From: Candidatus Gracilibacteria bacterium
GTDB taxonomy: Bacteria > Patescibacteriota > Gracilibacteria > BD1-5 > UBA2023
Direction: 5' to 3'
Length of the DNA: 64,000 bases
NCBI GenBank assembly: GCA_028687475.1
Contig: JAQUAB010000002.1
Coordinates: 1-64,000, forward strand
Positions 1,343 to 36,149 of the stretch are shown piece by piece; the first letter of the stretch is position 1; every line of letters begins with the position of its first letter. Position numbers and translations under genes: made by a program. Under the pieces are notes generated by a model. It was not told the DNA's origin. It saw nothing but the letters and a program-made list of their open reading frames with translations, and ran no database searches.

Positions 1343-1396
1343 ATGTCCTTCCCCTCCATCTCCCCAAAACAATCCTTTCCAGCCCTCGAATTTTAA
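1343..1396 (+). CDS. Mini-ORF: copy 1 of the ileS 5' end
   Basis: Encodes MSFPSISPKQSFPALEF and a TAA. The first 16 residues match the true IleRS start (MPFPSISPKQSFPALE) at all but residue 2, while most base differences are silent, for example TTC/TTT and GCT/GCC. Identity stops exactly where the mini-ORF terminates. Its stop lies 15 bp before the HAD gene ATG, a spacing that would allow translational reinitiation. This is a truncated copy of a gene start, not a known gene. Confidence 0.75.
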   Translation: MSFPSISPKQSFPALEF

Positions 1397-2069: not shown

Positions 2070-2120
2070 ATGTTCCCCTCTATCTCCCCAAAACAATCAT
2101 TCCCAGCTTTCGAATTTTAG
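2070..2120 (+). CDS. Mini-ORF: copy 2 of the ileS 5' end
   Basis: Encodes MFPSISPKQSFPAFEF and a TAG: the IleRS N-terminus with one codon missing and one Leu-to-Phe change. Copies 1 and 2 share the same truncated end GAATTTTA, which differs from true ileS (GAATCCGAG), so the two truncated forms are related to each other. The stop is 20 bp before the kinase ATG. Confidence 0.75.
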   Translation: MFPSISPKQSFPAFEF

Positions 2121-2140: not shown

Positions 2141-2659
2141 ATGCACGTTCTTCTCTGTGGCATATCTTGAGTATGAAAAACAACACTTGCAAAACAGTTA
2201 AGTAAGGATTTTTGATTGATTTGTAGTACATCAAGTGATGATATTCATACATGGATTCGTAAGAACTTCTGATTTTTAGGACAGGGTGAATTGGATATTA
2301 ACTCTCCGGAATATAAAATAACTCAACTTATAACAAAAGTATATCAACAAGTTGAGATACTTTTACAATCAAGAAGAAAAAATATGGTGATTGATGCTGC
2401 AAATCAAACTGAAAAGATACGATCTAGGATAGCTAAGTTGCTGCCTGAAAAACCGATAATCATATATATAACTTGTAACCAGGAAGAGCTTTATCATCGT
2501 TTACAAAATCGGGATAATCCAGAAGTATGGTTAGAATTGCATCTCAAACAAAAAACTAGCTTTGAACCTCCTGAAAATCCAGATATAATCTATAATACTT
2601 CAACTGATTCCTACGAGTATGTAAAACATCAAATTGCCTTAAGAGGCAAAAATAAATAG
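2141..2659 (+). CDS. Small P-loop kinase-like ATPase
   Basis: Encodes 172 residues and ends in TAG. The N-terminal Walker A block GISGVGKTT has its second and third glycines encoded by TGA, so the protein exists only under table 25. A later beta-strand with Asp (MVIDAAN) and a C-terminal strand (PIIIYITCN) followed by an Arg-rich lid-like stretch fit the AAA_33/zeta-toxin-like small-molecule kinase fold. Substrate unknown. It lies between copy 2 of the ileS start and ileS itself, with 33 bp to the ileS ATG. Confidence 0.65.
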
Positions 2660-2692: not shown

Positions 2693-5600
2693 ATGCCTTT
2701 CCCATCCATCTCCCCAAAACAATCATTCCCAGCTCTCGAATCCGAGATTCTCGCGTATTGGAAAGCGAACAATACCTTCAAGAAATCCATCGAATCCCGT
2801 CCAGAGGACAATCCATACCGATTCTACGACGGTCCTCCATTTATCACCGGAACTCCGCACTATGGAAGTCTTCTTTCAAGTATCGTGAAGGATGTGGTCG
2901 GACGATACTGGACGATGCGCGGCAAGCGTGTCGACCGCGTCTGGGGTTGGGACTGTCATGGTCTCCCGATAGAGGAAAAAGTCCAGAAAAAGCTCGGTCT
3001 CAAGTCAAATCGCGAAATCGAGGAACACGGGGTAAAGTCATTTATCGACGGTTGTTATGAATATACTCAATCTACCTCTGCAGAGTGGGATTGGTATATC
3101 GACAAGATCGGTCGTTGGGTGGATATGGATCGTGCGTATCGCACCATGGATCAGGACTATATGGAGTCCGTGATGTGGGTGTTCAAGCAGCTCTGGGACA
3201 AGGGTCTCATCTACGAGGGAAAGCGTGTTTCGCTCTACTCTTGGAAGCTCTCGACTCCGATTTCCAACTTTGAGGTGGCGATGGATGACACGTATCAGGA
3301 CGTGAACGACCCAGCGATTACGGTGAAGTTCCGACTTGAGGCTAATGATAAATTCCCAGAAAATACCTCTATCCTCGCCTGGACGACGACTCCATGGACA
3401 ATACCTGCGAATATGGCGCTCGGAATAGGGGAGAAGATTACCTACGTTCTCGTAGAAAATAATGGTGAGAATTATATCGTTGCTGCAACTCGTGCGGAGA
3501 CCGTATTCAAAGGAAAAGGAGAATACACGGTTGTTCGTGAATTCTCTGGCGCTGACCTCGTCGGACTCTCATATATTCCACCATTTCCAGAGTACTATAA
3601 GAATAAGTGGGATGCCTTATCTCCTGAGTGAGTTCAATCAGAAATTCTAAAACATTTAACCAATTCTAAAGCGTATTTTGATTGATTAAAAGAAGGAAGA
3701 CTTAGAACTTATCACAAAGTTTATGCTGCGGATTTCGCGACTGATACCGATGGTACTGGTATCGTACATATCGCGCCAGAGTTCGGAGATGTCGACTTCG
3801 GTCTCGCGAAAAAGTACGGAATCCCCGTGACAGAGGCAATGGACGAGGCAGGGAAGTACACGGCAGAGATTTTCGACTACGAAGGGACTCACTACCTCGA
3901 CCTCGAGAATCCTGAGAAATGAGCCAACAAGATCAATATCGAACGCATGAAGGCGAACAATACACTCTTCAAGCTTGAATGAATCACACACCGCGTGCCA
4001 TTCTGTCCACGCTCTGGAACTCCACTCATGCAGCGCGCACAATCATCATGGTTCATCGATATCCAATCACAGAAAGACAAGCTCCTCGAAGCGAACAAGC
4101 AGATTAACTGGTTCCCAGAATACTTGAAGGAAGGTCGATTTGCAAAGGGAATCGAATCCGCGCCAGACTGGTGCATCTCTCGTACTCGTTTCTGGTGAGC
4201 ACCGATGCCAGTGTGGATGGGAGAAGACGGCGAGCAACTCGTTATCGGTTCTCGTGAAGAGATTTTCGAACTCAACAAGCCGTTTGGACAACTCACGAAG
4301 CTCATCATCACTCGCCATGCAGAAAGTGTTGCAAATGTAGAAAAACACTATGACGATACTGGGGATTCTCCGCTCTCAGAAAACGGAAAGAGACAGGCTG
4401 AAGAACTCATGGCAGAACTGAAAGATAAATGAATTGATATCATTATCACTTCACCGTTTCTTCGCGCAATCCAGACAGCAGAACCTCTCGCAAAAGAACT
4501 TGGAATTAAAATTATTACAGATGATAGACTGAAAGAAACTGATCATGGAAAATTTGCAAATGCAGACTACAACAATGAAAATACTCGGAAACTTGTTCGC
4601 GAACAAAGAGATAGAATTTTTACAGATAAAAGCGTAAAATTCTGAGAAACAGGAGAATCATATACAGATGTCGAAATGCGAGTAAAAACCGTAATAGAAG
4701 AAATATGTGAAAAATATCCTGGAAAAACTGTGTTTATCGTGAGTCATGGATTCCCTGTCAGAATAGCTACAGAATATCTTACTGGAAAACGAGCATCAGA
4801 AACAACAAAGAATGCTGACGCGAGAACATTTATCCTCGACGTTACCAATAAAAACCTTCTCAACCTTCACCGTCCATATATCGACGCTATCAAGCTCAAA
4901 TCTCCAAAAACAGGAAATACTCTCACACGTATACCAGAAGTCCTCGACGTCTGGATGGACTCAGGTTCTATGCCGTACGCGCAGATGCACTATCCATTCG
5001 AGAACAAGGGTGAGATGGAGGCGAGCTTTCCAGCGGATTTCATCGCGGAATACGTCGGTCAGGTTCGTGCTTGGTTTTATGTGATGCACGTTCTCGGAGT
5101 ACTCCTCAATCCGAACAATGAACCGACTCCAACTCCATCATTCACGAATGTTATCACAACCGGTGTCATCAATGGAAATGATGGCCGCAAGATGAGTAAA
5201 TCATACGGAAATTATCCTGATCCTCGTGCGACGATCGAGAAATACGGAGCTGATCCGATCCGTTTCTATATGCTCAATTCTCCACTCCTCTCAGGCGGAG
5301 ATATGGACTTCAAAGAAGAGGGAATTATGGAGACGATCAAGGGTGTGATGCTCCCAATCTGGAACACGTATTCATTCTTCACAACATATGCAAACATCGA
5401 CGGCTGGACGCAAGATGAGACAGAAATCTGGTTCACTCGTCATGCGGAAAGTGAATCGAATGTGATACAGAAAATGAGTGATGGAACTGATGATCCGAAA
5501 CTCACAGAAAAAGGAAGAGAGCAAGCAAAGAATGCTGGAGAAAAACTCCGTGAACAAGGGAAGAATTTCGATGTCATTATCTATACAGATCGCGTTCGTA

Positions 5601-7045
5601 CATACGATACTGCTCGTATTATTGGCACAGAAATTGGATTCATAGGAGAATATATCGTCCATGATGGATTCGCAGAACAATCAGCTGGGGAATATGCGAA
5701 CAAGACGCTCCAAGAAATTGCTACAATGAAATGACTTCCAACCGATACGAGTCATGTGGAACTCAGAAAAATCTACAAAAATAATTCTGCAGAAAATCTC
5801 GAACAATTCGAGAAAAGAATCCTTGCAGCCTATGAAGATGTCCTCGCGAAATACAAAGGAAAACGAGTACTCATAATAGCTCATGCAGGAACACCTCGTC
5901 CGATTCTCGCGAACTATATGGGAATGGACAAAGAAACAGCGAATTACAATACTACTATCCACAATGCTGACCCATTCCGACTCGCAACGACCAAAATCGT
6001 AAATCCGCTCGACCGTTGGATCCTCTCGAAACTTCAGGTTCTCATCGGACAAGTACACGACGCCATGGAATGATACGACATCTCTCGTGCCTGTCGTGCC
6101 ATCGTCGACTATATGGATGAGCTCACGAATTGGTATGTCCGACTTTCCCGCCGACGTTTCTGGGGATCAGATATGACTGATGATAAGAAATCCGGATATG
6201 AGACACTTCACACCGTACTCGTGGAAGTATCGAAGCTCCTCGCTCCATATATGCCATTCCTCGCGGAAAGTATTTTCCAAGGATTGACTAGAAAGGAATC
6301 TGTTCACCTCGAATATGTAACCTTCCCAAATCGTCATCTCATATCGAGTGATCTGAATCGTGATATGGAAATCTGTGAACATATCGTCTCCCTCGGACTC
6401 GCGCTTCGCTCACGCAAAAATATCCGTGTCCGTCAGCCACTCCAGTCTGTCACGATCACGCAAGAACTCGACGAATACTACCAGTCCATCATCCGCGATG
6501 AACTCAATGTGAAGGAAGTCCGATTCGAGAATCCAGAAAGACTCGCGAAAAAAATCTGCAAACCTGATGCTCGAAAGATTGGTCCAAAATACGGAAAAGA
6601 TGTACAGAAAGTCATCATGGAAGCAAAGAATGGAAATTTCGTAGAAAAGGAAAATGGTATCGTCGATGTTAGTGGATTCATCCTCGAAAGAGGGGAATAC
6701 ACAATGGAATACCTTCCACTCGAAGGTGTCGGCGACGTCGAAGGTGGCTATGGTATGGTGATTTCTCTCGATATGAACATCACAGAATCACTGAAGCTCG
6801 AAGGATATGCTCGCGACCTTATCCGTGCCATCCAAGAGATGCGAAAAGAGGCTGACTACCAAGTCACAGATCGTATATCGCTCCATATTTTCGGTGAGAA
6901 ACACGAAGAAATCCTCGCATCATTCGGAGAAATGATCCAATCCGAAACGCTCGCTACAATCGCTCCGCTCATGGTGAATCCTGACCTCCAGAAAGAAGTA
7001 GAAATCGATGAGGGAATCACTCTCACAATCCAGATAGAGAAATAA
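2693..7045 (+). CDS. ileS: Isoleucyl-tRNA synthetase with two inserted histidine-phosphatase domains
   Basis: This 1450-residue frame charges tRNA-Ile with isoleucine. The HIGH-type motif is HYGS (56-59), KMSKS is at 833-837, then the anticodon-binding domain and a C-terminal region typical of the archaeal/eukaryotic-like IleRS clade (usually about 1030-1060 aa). The extra length is two complete histidine-phosphatase domains. One spans about 537-724, inside the connective region just before HRPYID, with catalytic R541-H542, R591, E615, H685. The other spans about 909-1102, between the catalytic core and NPLDRW, with R916-H917, R967/R969, E995, H1064. Both have all catalytic residues. The inserts favour AAA, GAA and GGA, while the core uses AAG, GAG and GGT. 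Several TGA codons read as Gly. Confidence 0.95.
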
Positions 7046-32741: not shown

Positions 32742-32800
32742 AGGGGTAAAAAATAAGGAATTAAAAGTTTTTTGTTCACATTTGATTCAGAGAAATTTAT

Positions 32801-33349
32801 TTAAGAAAGAAAGGTGTTTGTCAGACCAGTAGAAGATGTTGGTTGGATAAATTCTATAGTTATTCATCATATAACAGATCATGACGGAACTACTGAAGAA
32901 TCATCTATTACAATAATTCTATTAATTTTTCATCAAAAATCCTCACAAAACTTTCGTATCTGCTCCAATCGTAAATCTTTTTTGTGAGTTGCTTCATAGA
33001 GCCACTGCCTCCACTCAAATGGATTAGCAATATTTCTAGGTTTGTACATAGTCTTTTGAACAGAGTTTTGTCATATAGCTTTAGCAAGTATTTCTTCAGG
33101 AAGAGTCTTTCTCCAATCAGAAGAAATAACTATTTTCACATTTCATCAAATGCTCTGAATGAAACTATTCAGCACTCGCTTTTTCTCCTCAGAAATGGTT
33201 TGCAAGACAAGATCATATCTTCCAATCTTTGTCCAGTAATTTCTCCAAAAAATCTGTCTCCAATGATCCGAAAGACTAATGAATGGACACATAACACCAT
33301 CTATATCAAGAAAGATAAAATTAGTTGAAGATTGTTTTTCTGTTTCCAT
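32801..33349 (-). CDS. HAD-type hydrolase, SAK-like
   Basis: Encodes 182 residues, ATG to TAA. Motif I is FLDIDGVM (10-19), motif II is VISSDWRK and a late acidic motif is VIDD. The pair DIDGV...SSDWR resembles HAD domains of the RNA-repair-associated HAD_SAK type. The C-terminal third contains several TGA-encoded glycines. It is 20 bp downstream of the HD hydrolase and follows it on the same strand. Confidence 0.7.
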
Positions 33350-33369: not shown

Positions 33370-33960
33370 TTACTGATAAATCTCCTTCGCATCGATTTTC
33401 TTGAGATTTCATTTTTTCCACCAGTCAGTGAATCCCGTTTTCTGGAGCTCTTGCCAGAGTTTTTTCGCACTCTCCGTTCTGAGCGCTTTCCCAACATTGA
33501 TGATCCAATCCTCAGCCTCATGGAATCCGAGTTCCATATATTTCTTCGCCTGAAACGCCTGTTCGAGATAGTCAGCATCCTTCGCAACTATTCCTTCAAG
33601 TGTCGTCCGATGCTCGTATTCATGAAAAAGCTCGAGAATATCAGCACCAAACTCGATATCCTGGAATTGATCCTGCATCACTTGTTCTTCGACTTCCATC
33701 TTGTTCGTGATATATCGCGTCGCTACCTTGTGCATATCACCCACTCGACTCTCGGCAATATCATGCCAGACAAGCATGCTCGCACACTTATTCGCATCAG
33801 CTCACTCCATCTGGGCAAGGATATAGGCAATCTGTGCAGCGTTCAGGCTATGTTCCGCGACAGAGTCAGGATTCGAAATGCCCGCCATTCTCCAACCCTC
33901 ATGTTTGATTTCTTTGAGTTGGAAGCATTCGAAGATGAGATTGGTGAGTTTTTTGAGCAT
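33370..33960 (-). CDS. HD-domain phosphohydrolase (YfbR/HDDC2 type)
   Basis: Encodes 196 residues. HD metal ligands are visible as SVAEHSLNAA, WHDIAESRVGD and the later Asp. Relatives are 5'-deoxynucleotidases. The standard code would truncate both ends; the last 12 residues follow a TGA Gly. The first 16 codons (MLKKLTNLIFECFQLK) occur a second time at 34387-34437, upstream of an intervening MazG-like gene. The start is 3 bp after the MazG stop. Confidence 0.85.
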
Positions 33961-33963
33961 AGC

Positions 33964-34356
33964 TTATAGGATATTATCAAGAGTATCTTGTTCCTGCTTC
34001 AATCTTTCTTTTTGCATTCTCTTTACCTCAATCCAATTCCCATTATTAGAACCATCTATATTGAGACGTTCGCTAAATTTTGTATAACATCGTTCAAATA
34101 CTTTTTCTTTATTGATTTTTCATTCCTGTTCTAGATTCTCGAGAAGACAAATATAATCCCAAAAAACATCTCCGAGCTCATCTTCGAGATATACTTGTTT
34201 TCCATTTTCTAGCTCTTCTTTTACTTCATTCATTTCATCCAGAATTCCATCAAAAAAAGTCTGACTTCACTTAAAAAAATTTCCGTCACCGTGTTTCATA
34301 AGAAATGGTATACGTTTCTCTGTGAGAATAATGAGTTTCTGGATAATAGAAAGCAT
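33964..34356 (-). CDS. MazG-like nucleotide pyrophosphohydrolase
   Basis: Encodes 130 residues, ATG to TAA, with two TGA glycines. The MazG/all-alpha NTP-PPase core is ILDEMNEVKEELE plus LEDELGDVFWDYICLLE, supplying the four acidic metal ligands. It would hydrolyse (d)NTPs to monophosphates. It sits between the HD gene and a copied HD-gene start, so it appears to be an inserted cassette. Confidence 0.8.
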
Positions 34357-34386
34357 ATGATAGATTAAATAAATACTCTTTTTGCC

Positions 34387-34437
34387 TTATTTGAACTGGA
34401 GACATTCGAAGATGAGATTGGTGAGTTTTTTGAACAT
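34387..34437 (-). CDS. Mini-ORF: copy of the HD-gene 5' end
   Basis: Encodes MFKKLTNLIFECLQFK and TAA. It matches the first 16 codons of the HD gene at 43 of 48 bases. The stop replaces the next Glu codon. The mini-ORF is 51 bp, the same length as ileS copy 2, and lies 30 bp before the MazG ATG. Confidence 0.75.
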   Translation of the reverse strand: MFKKLTNLIFECLQFK

Positions 34438-34466: not shown

Positions 34467-34957
34467 CTACAATTCTAATTCAAAATGCAAGTCAGAAATA
34501 TCTCAAACGAGTTGGATAAACCAAACAGGAACCCTATTCACTGAAAATAATCCATCTCATTGTTTCCAGCTAACAATTTCTCCAGCCTTCAATAATCGAG
34601 TTGCTGCTTTCCGATAAAATCAGATAGCATCAGGTACTGAAAATAATATAATTTTTTGGGTTTTAAATCTTTTCTCACTTCCTGAATAAATCTACTAAGA
34701 CATAAAATTCAAAGTCATGGATACTTCCGTAATCAAGCATTTCGAAATCTTATAGGATTAACGAGAGTATTTTTAACGAGGTTTGCAGTATGTAATCGAA
34801 TAATCTTGATTACTCCTACTCATACATGATTATAGATAATCTCTCCAACAAAATCATATTCCCCCTCATTATTCTTTGAAACAAAGAAGTTTATATAGGG
34901 AAGATTTGGATATTGTTTAGATGTTCATTTTTCTATTACCAAGTCTTGTTCATTCAT
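34467..34957 (-). pseudogene. Decayed gene with two frameshifts
   Basis: From ATG 34957 one frame reads MNEQDLVIEKGTSKQY to about NTLVNPIRF. Coding-like sequence then jumps to EMLDYGSIHDFEFYVLVDLF in a second frame and to KIILFSVPDAIGFYRKAATR through HFELEL and TAG (34467-34469) in a third. Each piece has protein-like composition with TGA as Gly, so this is most likely a recently broken gene. I do not recognise the family. It lies between tyrS and the copied HD-gene start. Confidence 0.55.
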
Positions 34958-34970
34958 AAAACTTGAATTC

Positions 34971-36149
34971 TTATAAAAACACTCTTTTTGCTTTCTTCTT
35001 TCCCATCTCAACCAGAGTTCCTTCGGGAGAAATTGTAACGAGAAATTTCGGATCTGTAATCACTTCGCCATTCACTCGGACAGAATTCCCAGCGAGTGCA
35101 TTGCGAACATCTCAGGAAGTTGCACAGAAGTTTAATTCTTTCAGAATATCTCCAATAAACATTTTCCCGTCTAGCAACTTGGAACTAGTTACTTGGAACT
35201 TCTCGATACTTCCAGTATCGAGGGGATCATACGGTTTCCCATGATACATCGTGACGACATAGTCAGCAAGTTCTTTCTTCAGGATATTCGGATGTTCACC
35301 AGATTCCAGTCGTTTTGCAATGACATCCACCTGTTCGATGGTCATATCCGTCGCGAAGGTGAAGTAGTGAACGATGAGACTATCATCGACATTGATGAGC
35401 TTCTGATACATATCGAATGGAGTATCATCGATGAGGATACAGTTTGGGCTTGTTTTACTCATCTTTTTTCCATCCGTTCCGACGAGGAGATCGAATGTCA
35501 TAATATCCTGCTTCGGCAGTCCAAATGCATTCATCATCGTACGTCCAGCTAAGAGATTGAAGTACTGATCATTCCCACCGAGTTCGAGATCACAGGAACC
35601 ATATTTCTTCGCGATGGCGACACTATCATATCCTTGCATGATAGGATAGAGAAATTCCTGAAGGGAAATGCGCTTTCCTTCCTTGTAGCGCTTCGAGAAA
35701 TTATCACGATCGAGCATCTCCGCCACGGAGAAATTCTTCGCAAGTTCACCAACTCAAGCAAAATTCACTACATCGAGTCATTCACTATTGTAGTAGACAT
35801 TGATCTTCGAAATATCGATGACTTTCGAGAATTTCTGGAGGAATACCTCACAATTGCGACGAGTCTCCTCTCGTGTGAGCATCGGACGTTCTGCATCTTT
35901 ATCACTCGTATCACCGACTTGTGCCGTCGCATCACCGAACAAGAGAACAATCTCATGTCCGAGCGCTTGGAATTCCTTGAGCTTCAAGAATGGTACCATA
36001 TGCCCGATATGAATCTTCGCAGCGGTCGGATCGATTCCGAACTTCACGCGGAGCTTTTCTCCAGCAAGGAGACGTTTCTCGAGATTGGCTCGGTCGATAA
36101 CATTGGACACTCACTTCGTGAGGAGATTATGGATTTGAGAATTTTGCAT
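34971..36149 (-). CDS. tyrS: Tyrosyl-tRNA synthetase
   Basis: Encodes 392 residues. Charges tRNA-Tyr. HIGH is HIGH in KIHIGHMVPF, KMSKS is KKMSKTSPN, and an S4-like C-terminal domain (about 335-392, SGDVRNALAGNSVRVNGE) binds the tRNA. Three TGA codons encode Gly, one in the S4 domain, and they would break the gene into three. The ATG at 36149 lies 2 bp from the clpP stop on the same strand, so clpP and tyrS are co-transcribed. Confidence 0.96.

Follow-up and report, generated by a model that had tools for sequence, protein, structure and literature searches.

How did the beginning of an HD hydrolase gene come to stand a second time upstream of that gene, closed by a stop codon and separated from the intact copy by an entire MazG-type gene? 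The locus lies on contig C2 of a Gracilibacteria genome (G000; 1.06 Mb, 5 contigs, 0.39% contamination), whose bases 1-64000, the whole stretch of 64,000 nucleotides analysed here, are referred to as the window. According to the preliminary description, the HD gene's first 16 codons recur at 34437-34387 with a stop at their end and a MazG gene in between. This arrangement is genuine: a direct repeat of 33904-33960 and 34381-34437 extends over 57 nt with 86% identity (68 bits), the similarity starts exactly at the ATG in both copies, and the genes concerned match PF03819 and PF13023. A chance origin is excluded by 20 dinucleotide shuffles of the window, in which direct repeats at most 1.5 kb apart reached no more than 32 bits. 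The shorter copy, called stub in the following, reads MFKKLTNLIFECLQFK and then TAA, where the same codon of the full HD gene is GAA. In 60 long ORFs that do not overlap and together contain 19,550 codons, TGA occurs in frame 309 times, which fits code 25 with TGA encoding glycine, as in Gracilibacteria, so that the HD gene appears to end prematurely if read with table 11. A false stop caused by the wrong genetic code can be ruled out, because the stubs close with TAA or TAG, which also stop in code 25. An RNA leader was likewise rejected as the identity of the stub, as Rfam finds one tRNA only in the whole window.

The repeat belongs to a gene order that begins with tyrS and consists of the following parts:

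34971-36149, minus strand: tyrS, the conserved flank on the upstream side of the slot, called U (PF00579, E = 6e-64; TIGR00234 above cut-off); the clpP-tyrS order is kept in many relatives
34475-34957, minus strand: gene X, the first slot resident, 160 aa open in code 25, without Pfam match
34387-34437, minus strand: stub D', 16 initial codons of an HD gene followed by TAA, 86% identical to 33904-33960
34365-34385, minus strand: U', a copied tyrS 3' end, GCAAAAAGAGTATTTATTTAA (KAKRVFI and stop)
33964-34356, minus strand: MazG-type NTP pyrophosphohydrolase, the second cassette (PF03819, E = 7e-14)
33370-33960, minus strand: full HD hydrolase (5'-deoxynucleotidase-like), the D flank (HD_3, PF13023, E = 2e-26), its first ~60 nt donor-like

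The order is tyrS, gene X, HD stub joined to tyrS tail, MazG, and HD. A copy of the tyrS tail directly follows the HD stub, and gene X sits between tyrS and this stub; the copied tail and gene X (34957-34475) had both been overlooked before. Gene X may be frameshifted, since a second frame looks protein-like near its end. Over 21 nt, U' differs at 3 positions from the tyrS tail of the same genome (GCAAAAAGAGTGTTTTTATAA) and at 1 position from that of the relative G013 (GCAAAAAGAGTATTTATTTAG). Only 8 bp separate U' from the ATG of MazG, and the gap between tyrS and MazG is equally short in G023 and G004. The genome carries alleles of one slot in tandem behind tyrS.

The alternative alleles are present in relatives, of which 29 tyrS loci were surveyed; no tyrS frame was called in G017, G025, G007, and G008, so the next gene is unclear in these four. 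The slot is framed by conserved flanks, with clpP-tyrS before and CutA or LspA after it, and its whole-gene content varies or is absent: CutA follows tyrS directly in G002 and G021, HD is found in G013, MazG in G023, G004, and G014, a 294-aa gene plus MazG in G006, and LspA directly in G001, G003, G010, and G012, with other genes in the remaining readable loci. Because relatives hold different genes or none, even within the one genus that comprises G002, G013, G021, and G023, the single-gene content of the tyrS slot turns over quickly. This resembles the minimal mobile elements of Neisseria (Saunders and Snyder, 2002; Snyder, 2007, as cited in PMC3082526), which are described in that citing source as whole-gene cassettes exchanged between conserved genes by homologous recombination: in both cases, different whole-gene cassettes lie between two conserved neighbors. 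Unlike in minimal mobile elements, the exchange seen here crosses Gracilibacteria species and genera, and two or more alleles follow one another in tandem, separated by truncated flanks. No stub stands beside the same cassettes in the tyrS slot of the surveyed relatives. Between HD and CutA, a HAD_SAK_2 gene (PF18143) and a gene that is SLH-like by eye (32800-33349) are absent in G013 and are perhaps further cassettes of the slot. The TyrRS of G013 has 519 aa compared with 392 here, the ~127 additional residues being located before the S4-like end; after ileS (see below), tyrS is the second tRNA synthetase gene with a variable insert.

A second array precedes ileS:

1343-1396, plus strand: ileS stub 1, an upstream copy of the ileS start, MSFPSISPKQSFPALEF plus TAA
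1412-2029, plus strand: HAD_2 phosphatase cassette (PF13419, E = 2e-20)
2070-2120, plus strand: ileS stub 2, MFPSISPKQSFPAFEF plus TAG, 88% identity over 51 nt
2141-2659, plus strand: AAA_33-type kinase cassette (PF13671, E = 4e-15)
2693-7045, plus strand: full ileS, the D flank (PF00133, E = 9e-120; PF00300 in 2 stretches)

The ileS case reported earlier is thus real and contains two stubs, with ATGs at 1343 and 2070 ahead of the full-gene ATG at 2693, and the proposal that the ileS and HD cases represent the same phenomenon is supported. No copied U could be named at ileS, because the readable relatives differ in the gene preceding ileS. A donor search for the kinase cassette gave two weak matches only beyond the genome itself, and defence cassettes were rejected as an explanation, since among 6 proteins PADLOC yielded only weak matches, all of them for the kinase. 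The encoded IleRS itself is unusual: it is 1450 aa long and contains, inserted in frame, two histidine phosphatase domains (PF00300), a combination for which a literature search gave nothing relevant, and the open frame containing ileS in relatives ranges from about 1030 to >1700 aa. Among 34 genomes with a MazG match, 9 have a MazG-like gene at most 5 kb from the ileS start on the same contig (coordinates read by hand); HAD phosphatases lie within 2 kb of ileS in G044, G046, and G070, and in G016 an HD gene stands directly before ileS.

Short upstream copies of gene starts were sought in 704,000 bases of the same genome and in 1,161,151 bases of relatives. The scan covered C2 up to base 131,000, beyond which the contig is filled with repeats, and its rules miss stub 1 of ileS and stub 1 of the DUF2130 gene described below, both of which were found by other repeat searches. 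In the genome itself, 6 upstream hits comprised 4 true gene starts at 4 loci (ileS, HD, DUF2130, and porB), with 0 hits downstream; the other two hits were discarded, C1:109109 as not a gene start but the hairpin element itself and C2:97611 as terminator-like by eye. The scanned bases of relatives contained 0 upstream and 3 downstream copies, so recurrence is so far known from one genome. The expectation that the pattern recurs consequently holds for two more loci within 704 kb of the genome itself, one of them (porB) weak, and fails in 1.16 Mb of relatives. Two repeat features of other kinds were seen on C2, a tandem pair of a GTCATTGCGAGGAACGAAGCAATCCAGCAA-type repeat at 225-254 and 339-368 (97% alike) and ~10 kb of strongly repetitive sequence within C2:124001-144000, with repeat spacings mostly multiples of 51 bp.

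The DUF2130 gene at C1:119540 (PF09903, E = 2e-64) has stubs at C1:109406 (17 codons) and C1:109849 (~33 of 36 codons alike). A hairpin-plus-promoter-like element of 37 bp, of which the whole genome contains exactly three (C1:109102, 109460, and 119028), precedes each single-gene cassette of this array and constitutes its repeated U element. A NUDIX hydrolase (PF00293, E = 1e-21) forms the last cassette, and ~9 kb with a large RHS-like frame, named by eye, separate the second stub from the third element. In G015 a similar hairpin occurs immediately before the DUF2130 ATG, an arrangement that represents the empty state of the slot. The weakest case is porB (named by eye), with a stub of ~10 codons (30 nt, 93%, 46 bits) that runs into a decayed gene, NYN nuclease-like by eye; no copied tail was seen at porB. 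With MazG, HAD_2, the AAA_33-type kinase, and NUDIX, the carried genes are indeed often nucleotide or phosphate hydrolases or kinases, as had been suggested.

Could the stubs be functional leader peptides that drive translation of the inserted gene or regulate the gene downstream? Every stub retains its ATG and coding character and precedes a cassette gene, and the HD stub and MazG share one frame. However, at DUF2130 a hairpin resembling a terminator and a promoter-like element come after the first stub, stubs are missing beside the same cassettes in relatives, and divergence before truncation would also give the synonymous bias reported below. We regard such a function as highly improbable.

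The preliminary description invoked a dedicated, undescribed element, and a cassette system, be it integrase-like or not, that places a single gene at the start of another while restoring this start would account for the recurrence at unrelated genes, for the single-gene units of 268-727 bp, and for stubs of 16-17 codons at three loci. Yet the units are short and lack a visible recombinase: no mobility gene was detected by Pfam in MazG, HD, HAD, or kinase, and gene X has no match at all. Stub length is not fixed either, as shown by the spread from 10 over 16, 16-17, and 17 to about 33-36 codons. By eye, no site beyond microhomology is common to D' and U' at the different loci, and the legible junctions, those of HD and DUF2130 copy 1, consist of microhomology only: HD AAAGAAATCAAA meets tyrS AAAGAAAGCAAAA with AAAGAAA-CAAA in common, and the partners at DUF2130 stub 1 share TTTTC. 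Moreover, relatives carry cassettes in the same slot without stubs, and their 1.16 Mb contain 0 cases. A dedicated system is therefore very unlikely, and of the original reading the real, recurrent footprint stands; the unknown element is not supported.

Were the copies imported or made locally? Of the 22 codons that changed between stubs and host genes, 15 are synonymous, where 24% would be expected from random changes (p = 1.4e-5; tally by hand, excluding codon 2, junction codons, and differences between the two ileS stubs); HD alone contributes 2 synonymous changes among 4 counted codons and shows no excess. As the codon changes are mostly synonymous, the copies diverged as working genes, while both were still coding. 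The HD gene itself looks like a mosaic with a donor-like start: compared with G013 it has 2 mismatches in the first 60 nt (97% alike) versus 93 in the other 531 (~82%; Fisher p = 0.0025, the split point having been chosen after looking at the data), and this tract ends near nt 65. The start of HD is not generally conserved, because in G005 the first 60 nt (70%) are no more similar than the remainder. Furthermore, the ileS stubs begin with MSFP and MFP, variants found in other species, whereas the host gene has MPFP. DUF2130 stub 1 starts with MTNHQNL, comparable to MTTNQNL in G015 and MTTTQNL in G019 (MTnnQNL), and the host gene with MSNTNL. Two results count against import: an exact donor was not found, and the start of the host ileS is only weakly G002-like.

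These observations bear on the alternative that a segment of tyrS tail, gene, and HD start was duplicated in tandem via microhomology and one inner gene was then replaced or decayed. Such a duplication would yield the observed geometry, microhomology is present at the junction, and the DUF2130 stubs are nearer to the host gene (2/33 and 5/84 differences) than to the two relatives compared (7-9/33 and 18/84), a closeness that fits very near donors or self-duplication. On the other hand, the genes within the units are unrelated, U' is closer to the tyrS of another species (G013) than to its own, the divergence is mainly synonymous, and the stub variants agree with gene starts of other species. 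Simple self-duplication followed by decay, which the preliminary description had named among the findings that would refute it, thus explains the stubs poorly, and we consider it unlikely. A chimeric assembly of strains with different slot alleles is a further alternative: the genome is probably a metagenome assembly (the named genomes closest to it are MAGs of Gracilibacteria and Absconditabacterales) in which strains could differ at slots. Stub and gene, however, differ by 7-14%, which is above strain level, four loci are affected, assembler joins need overlaps exceeding the observed microhomology, and the assembly has 5 contigs with 0.39% contamination. We regard a chimera as highly improbable.

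We consider it probable that single-gene cassettes were repeatedly imported into conserved slots, in a manner like that of minimal mobile elements, and that the combination of a homologous and a microhomology junction left the old gene start behind. Exchange slots would exist behind tyrS, before ileS, and before the DUF2130 gene, where species hold different single genes between U and D. DNA of a related species, composed of the end of U, another gene, and the start of D, would enter the cell and recombine by homology within the start of D, while its other end would join the resident D via a microhomology of few bases, about 10-36 codons in. The product would be U-gene1-D'/U'-gene2-D, that is, tandem alleles, a dead stub D', and a complete D with donor-derived first bases, and repeated rounds would lead to the two-stub arrays at ileS and DUF2130. 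Stubs near 16-17 codons occur at three independent loci, and this import model gives no account of the shared length.

The donor may have been a linear piece, integrated by homology-facilitated illegitimate recombination, or a fragment whose ends were joined to a circle and which entered by a single crossover within ~50 bp of homology. In the former process, as outlined in the pertinent part of PMC3240628, one end is homologous and the other junction mostly comprises 3-10 bp of microhomology; the same part states that linear DNA can also be ligated to a circle and integrated by one crossover. The loci with readable junctions, HD and DUF2130 copy 1, would resemble those products in having one homologous end and one microhomology junction, but the events described there carry a deletion of about insert size, whereas whole single genes were added here and the homology amounts to about 50-65 bp. 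A circular donor is mildly favoured over a linear one by the shortness of the donor-like tract in HD. That sub-kilobase circles of one gene, with ~20 bp of one neighbor and ~50 bp of the other, stack by single crossovers in ~50 bp of homology is unlikely; if true, it would imply a frequent integrase-free cassette system with housekeeping gene starts as attachment sites. Natural transformation would be a plausible route of entry, because the genome has ComEC and DprA family matches and competence has been addressed in related organisms, with competence genes reported in another Gracilibacterium (in the section concerned of PMC6851277) and a discussion of competence in Patescibacteria (in that of PMC12455944). 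The two matches by themselves say little, because both families are widespread in control genomes (ComEC in 10/14, DprA in 11/14).

The claim that the mechanism is undescribed is not supported, as one-sided homologous recombination leaving remnants is already known from type VI secretion system effector-immunity arrays and orphan Rhs tips. According to the portion of PMC5361080 that deals with them, these arise by sequential displacement with a homology anchor on one side and an illegitimate join on the other; the displaced remnant stays, and repeated events build arrays. The retained remnant and the repetition leading to arrays are common to those systems, so far as that portion describes them, and to the loci studied here, and the one-sided anchor would be so too. 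The remnants differ: in that account, 3' regions and immunity genes remain, for which selection is assumed, while the loci studied here retain short, dead 5' starts that come from housekeeping genes and lie on the opposite side of the anchor. A literature search found no report of gene-start remnants at cassette insertions. The footprint is best read as a new, 5'-side form of displacement, brought about at exchange slots by recombination anchored on one side; known recombination can explain it, and no unknown mobile element is needed.

For annotation, it follows that short stub ORFs should not be called genes, and a series of unrelated hydrolase genes close to an aminoacyl-tRNA synthetase gene does not have to form a single-function operon. 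As legible fossils of imported genes, the stubs preserve the order, the direction, and the approximate source of each event, a rarity among uncultured bacteria. DNA uptake in Patescibacteria has so far been argued mainly from gene content, and scans for junctions of stub plus tail could map the routes and rates of import in this group.
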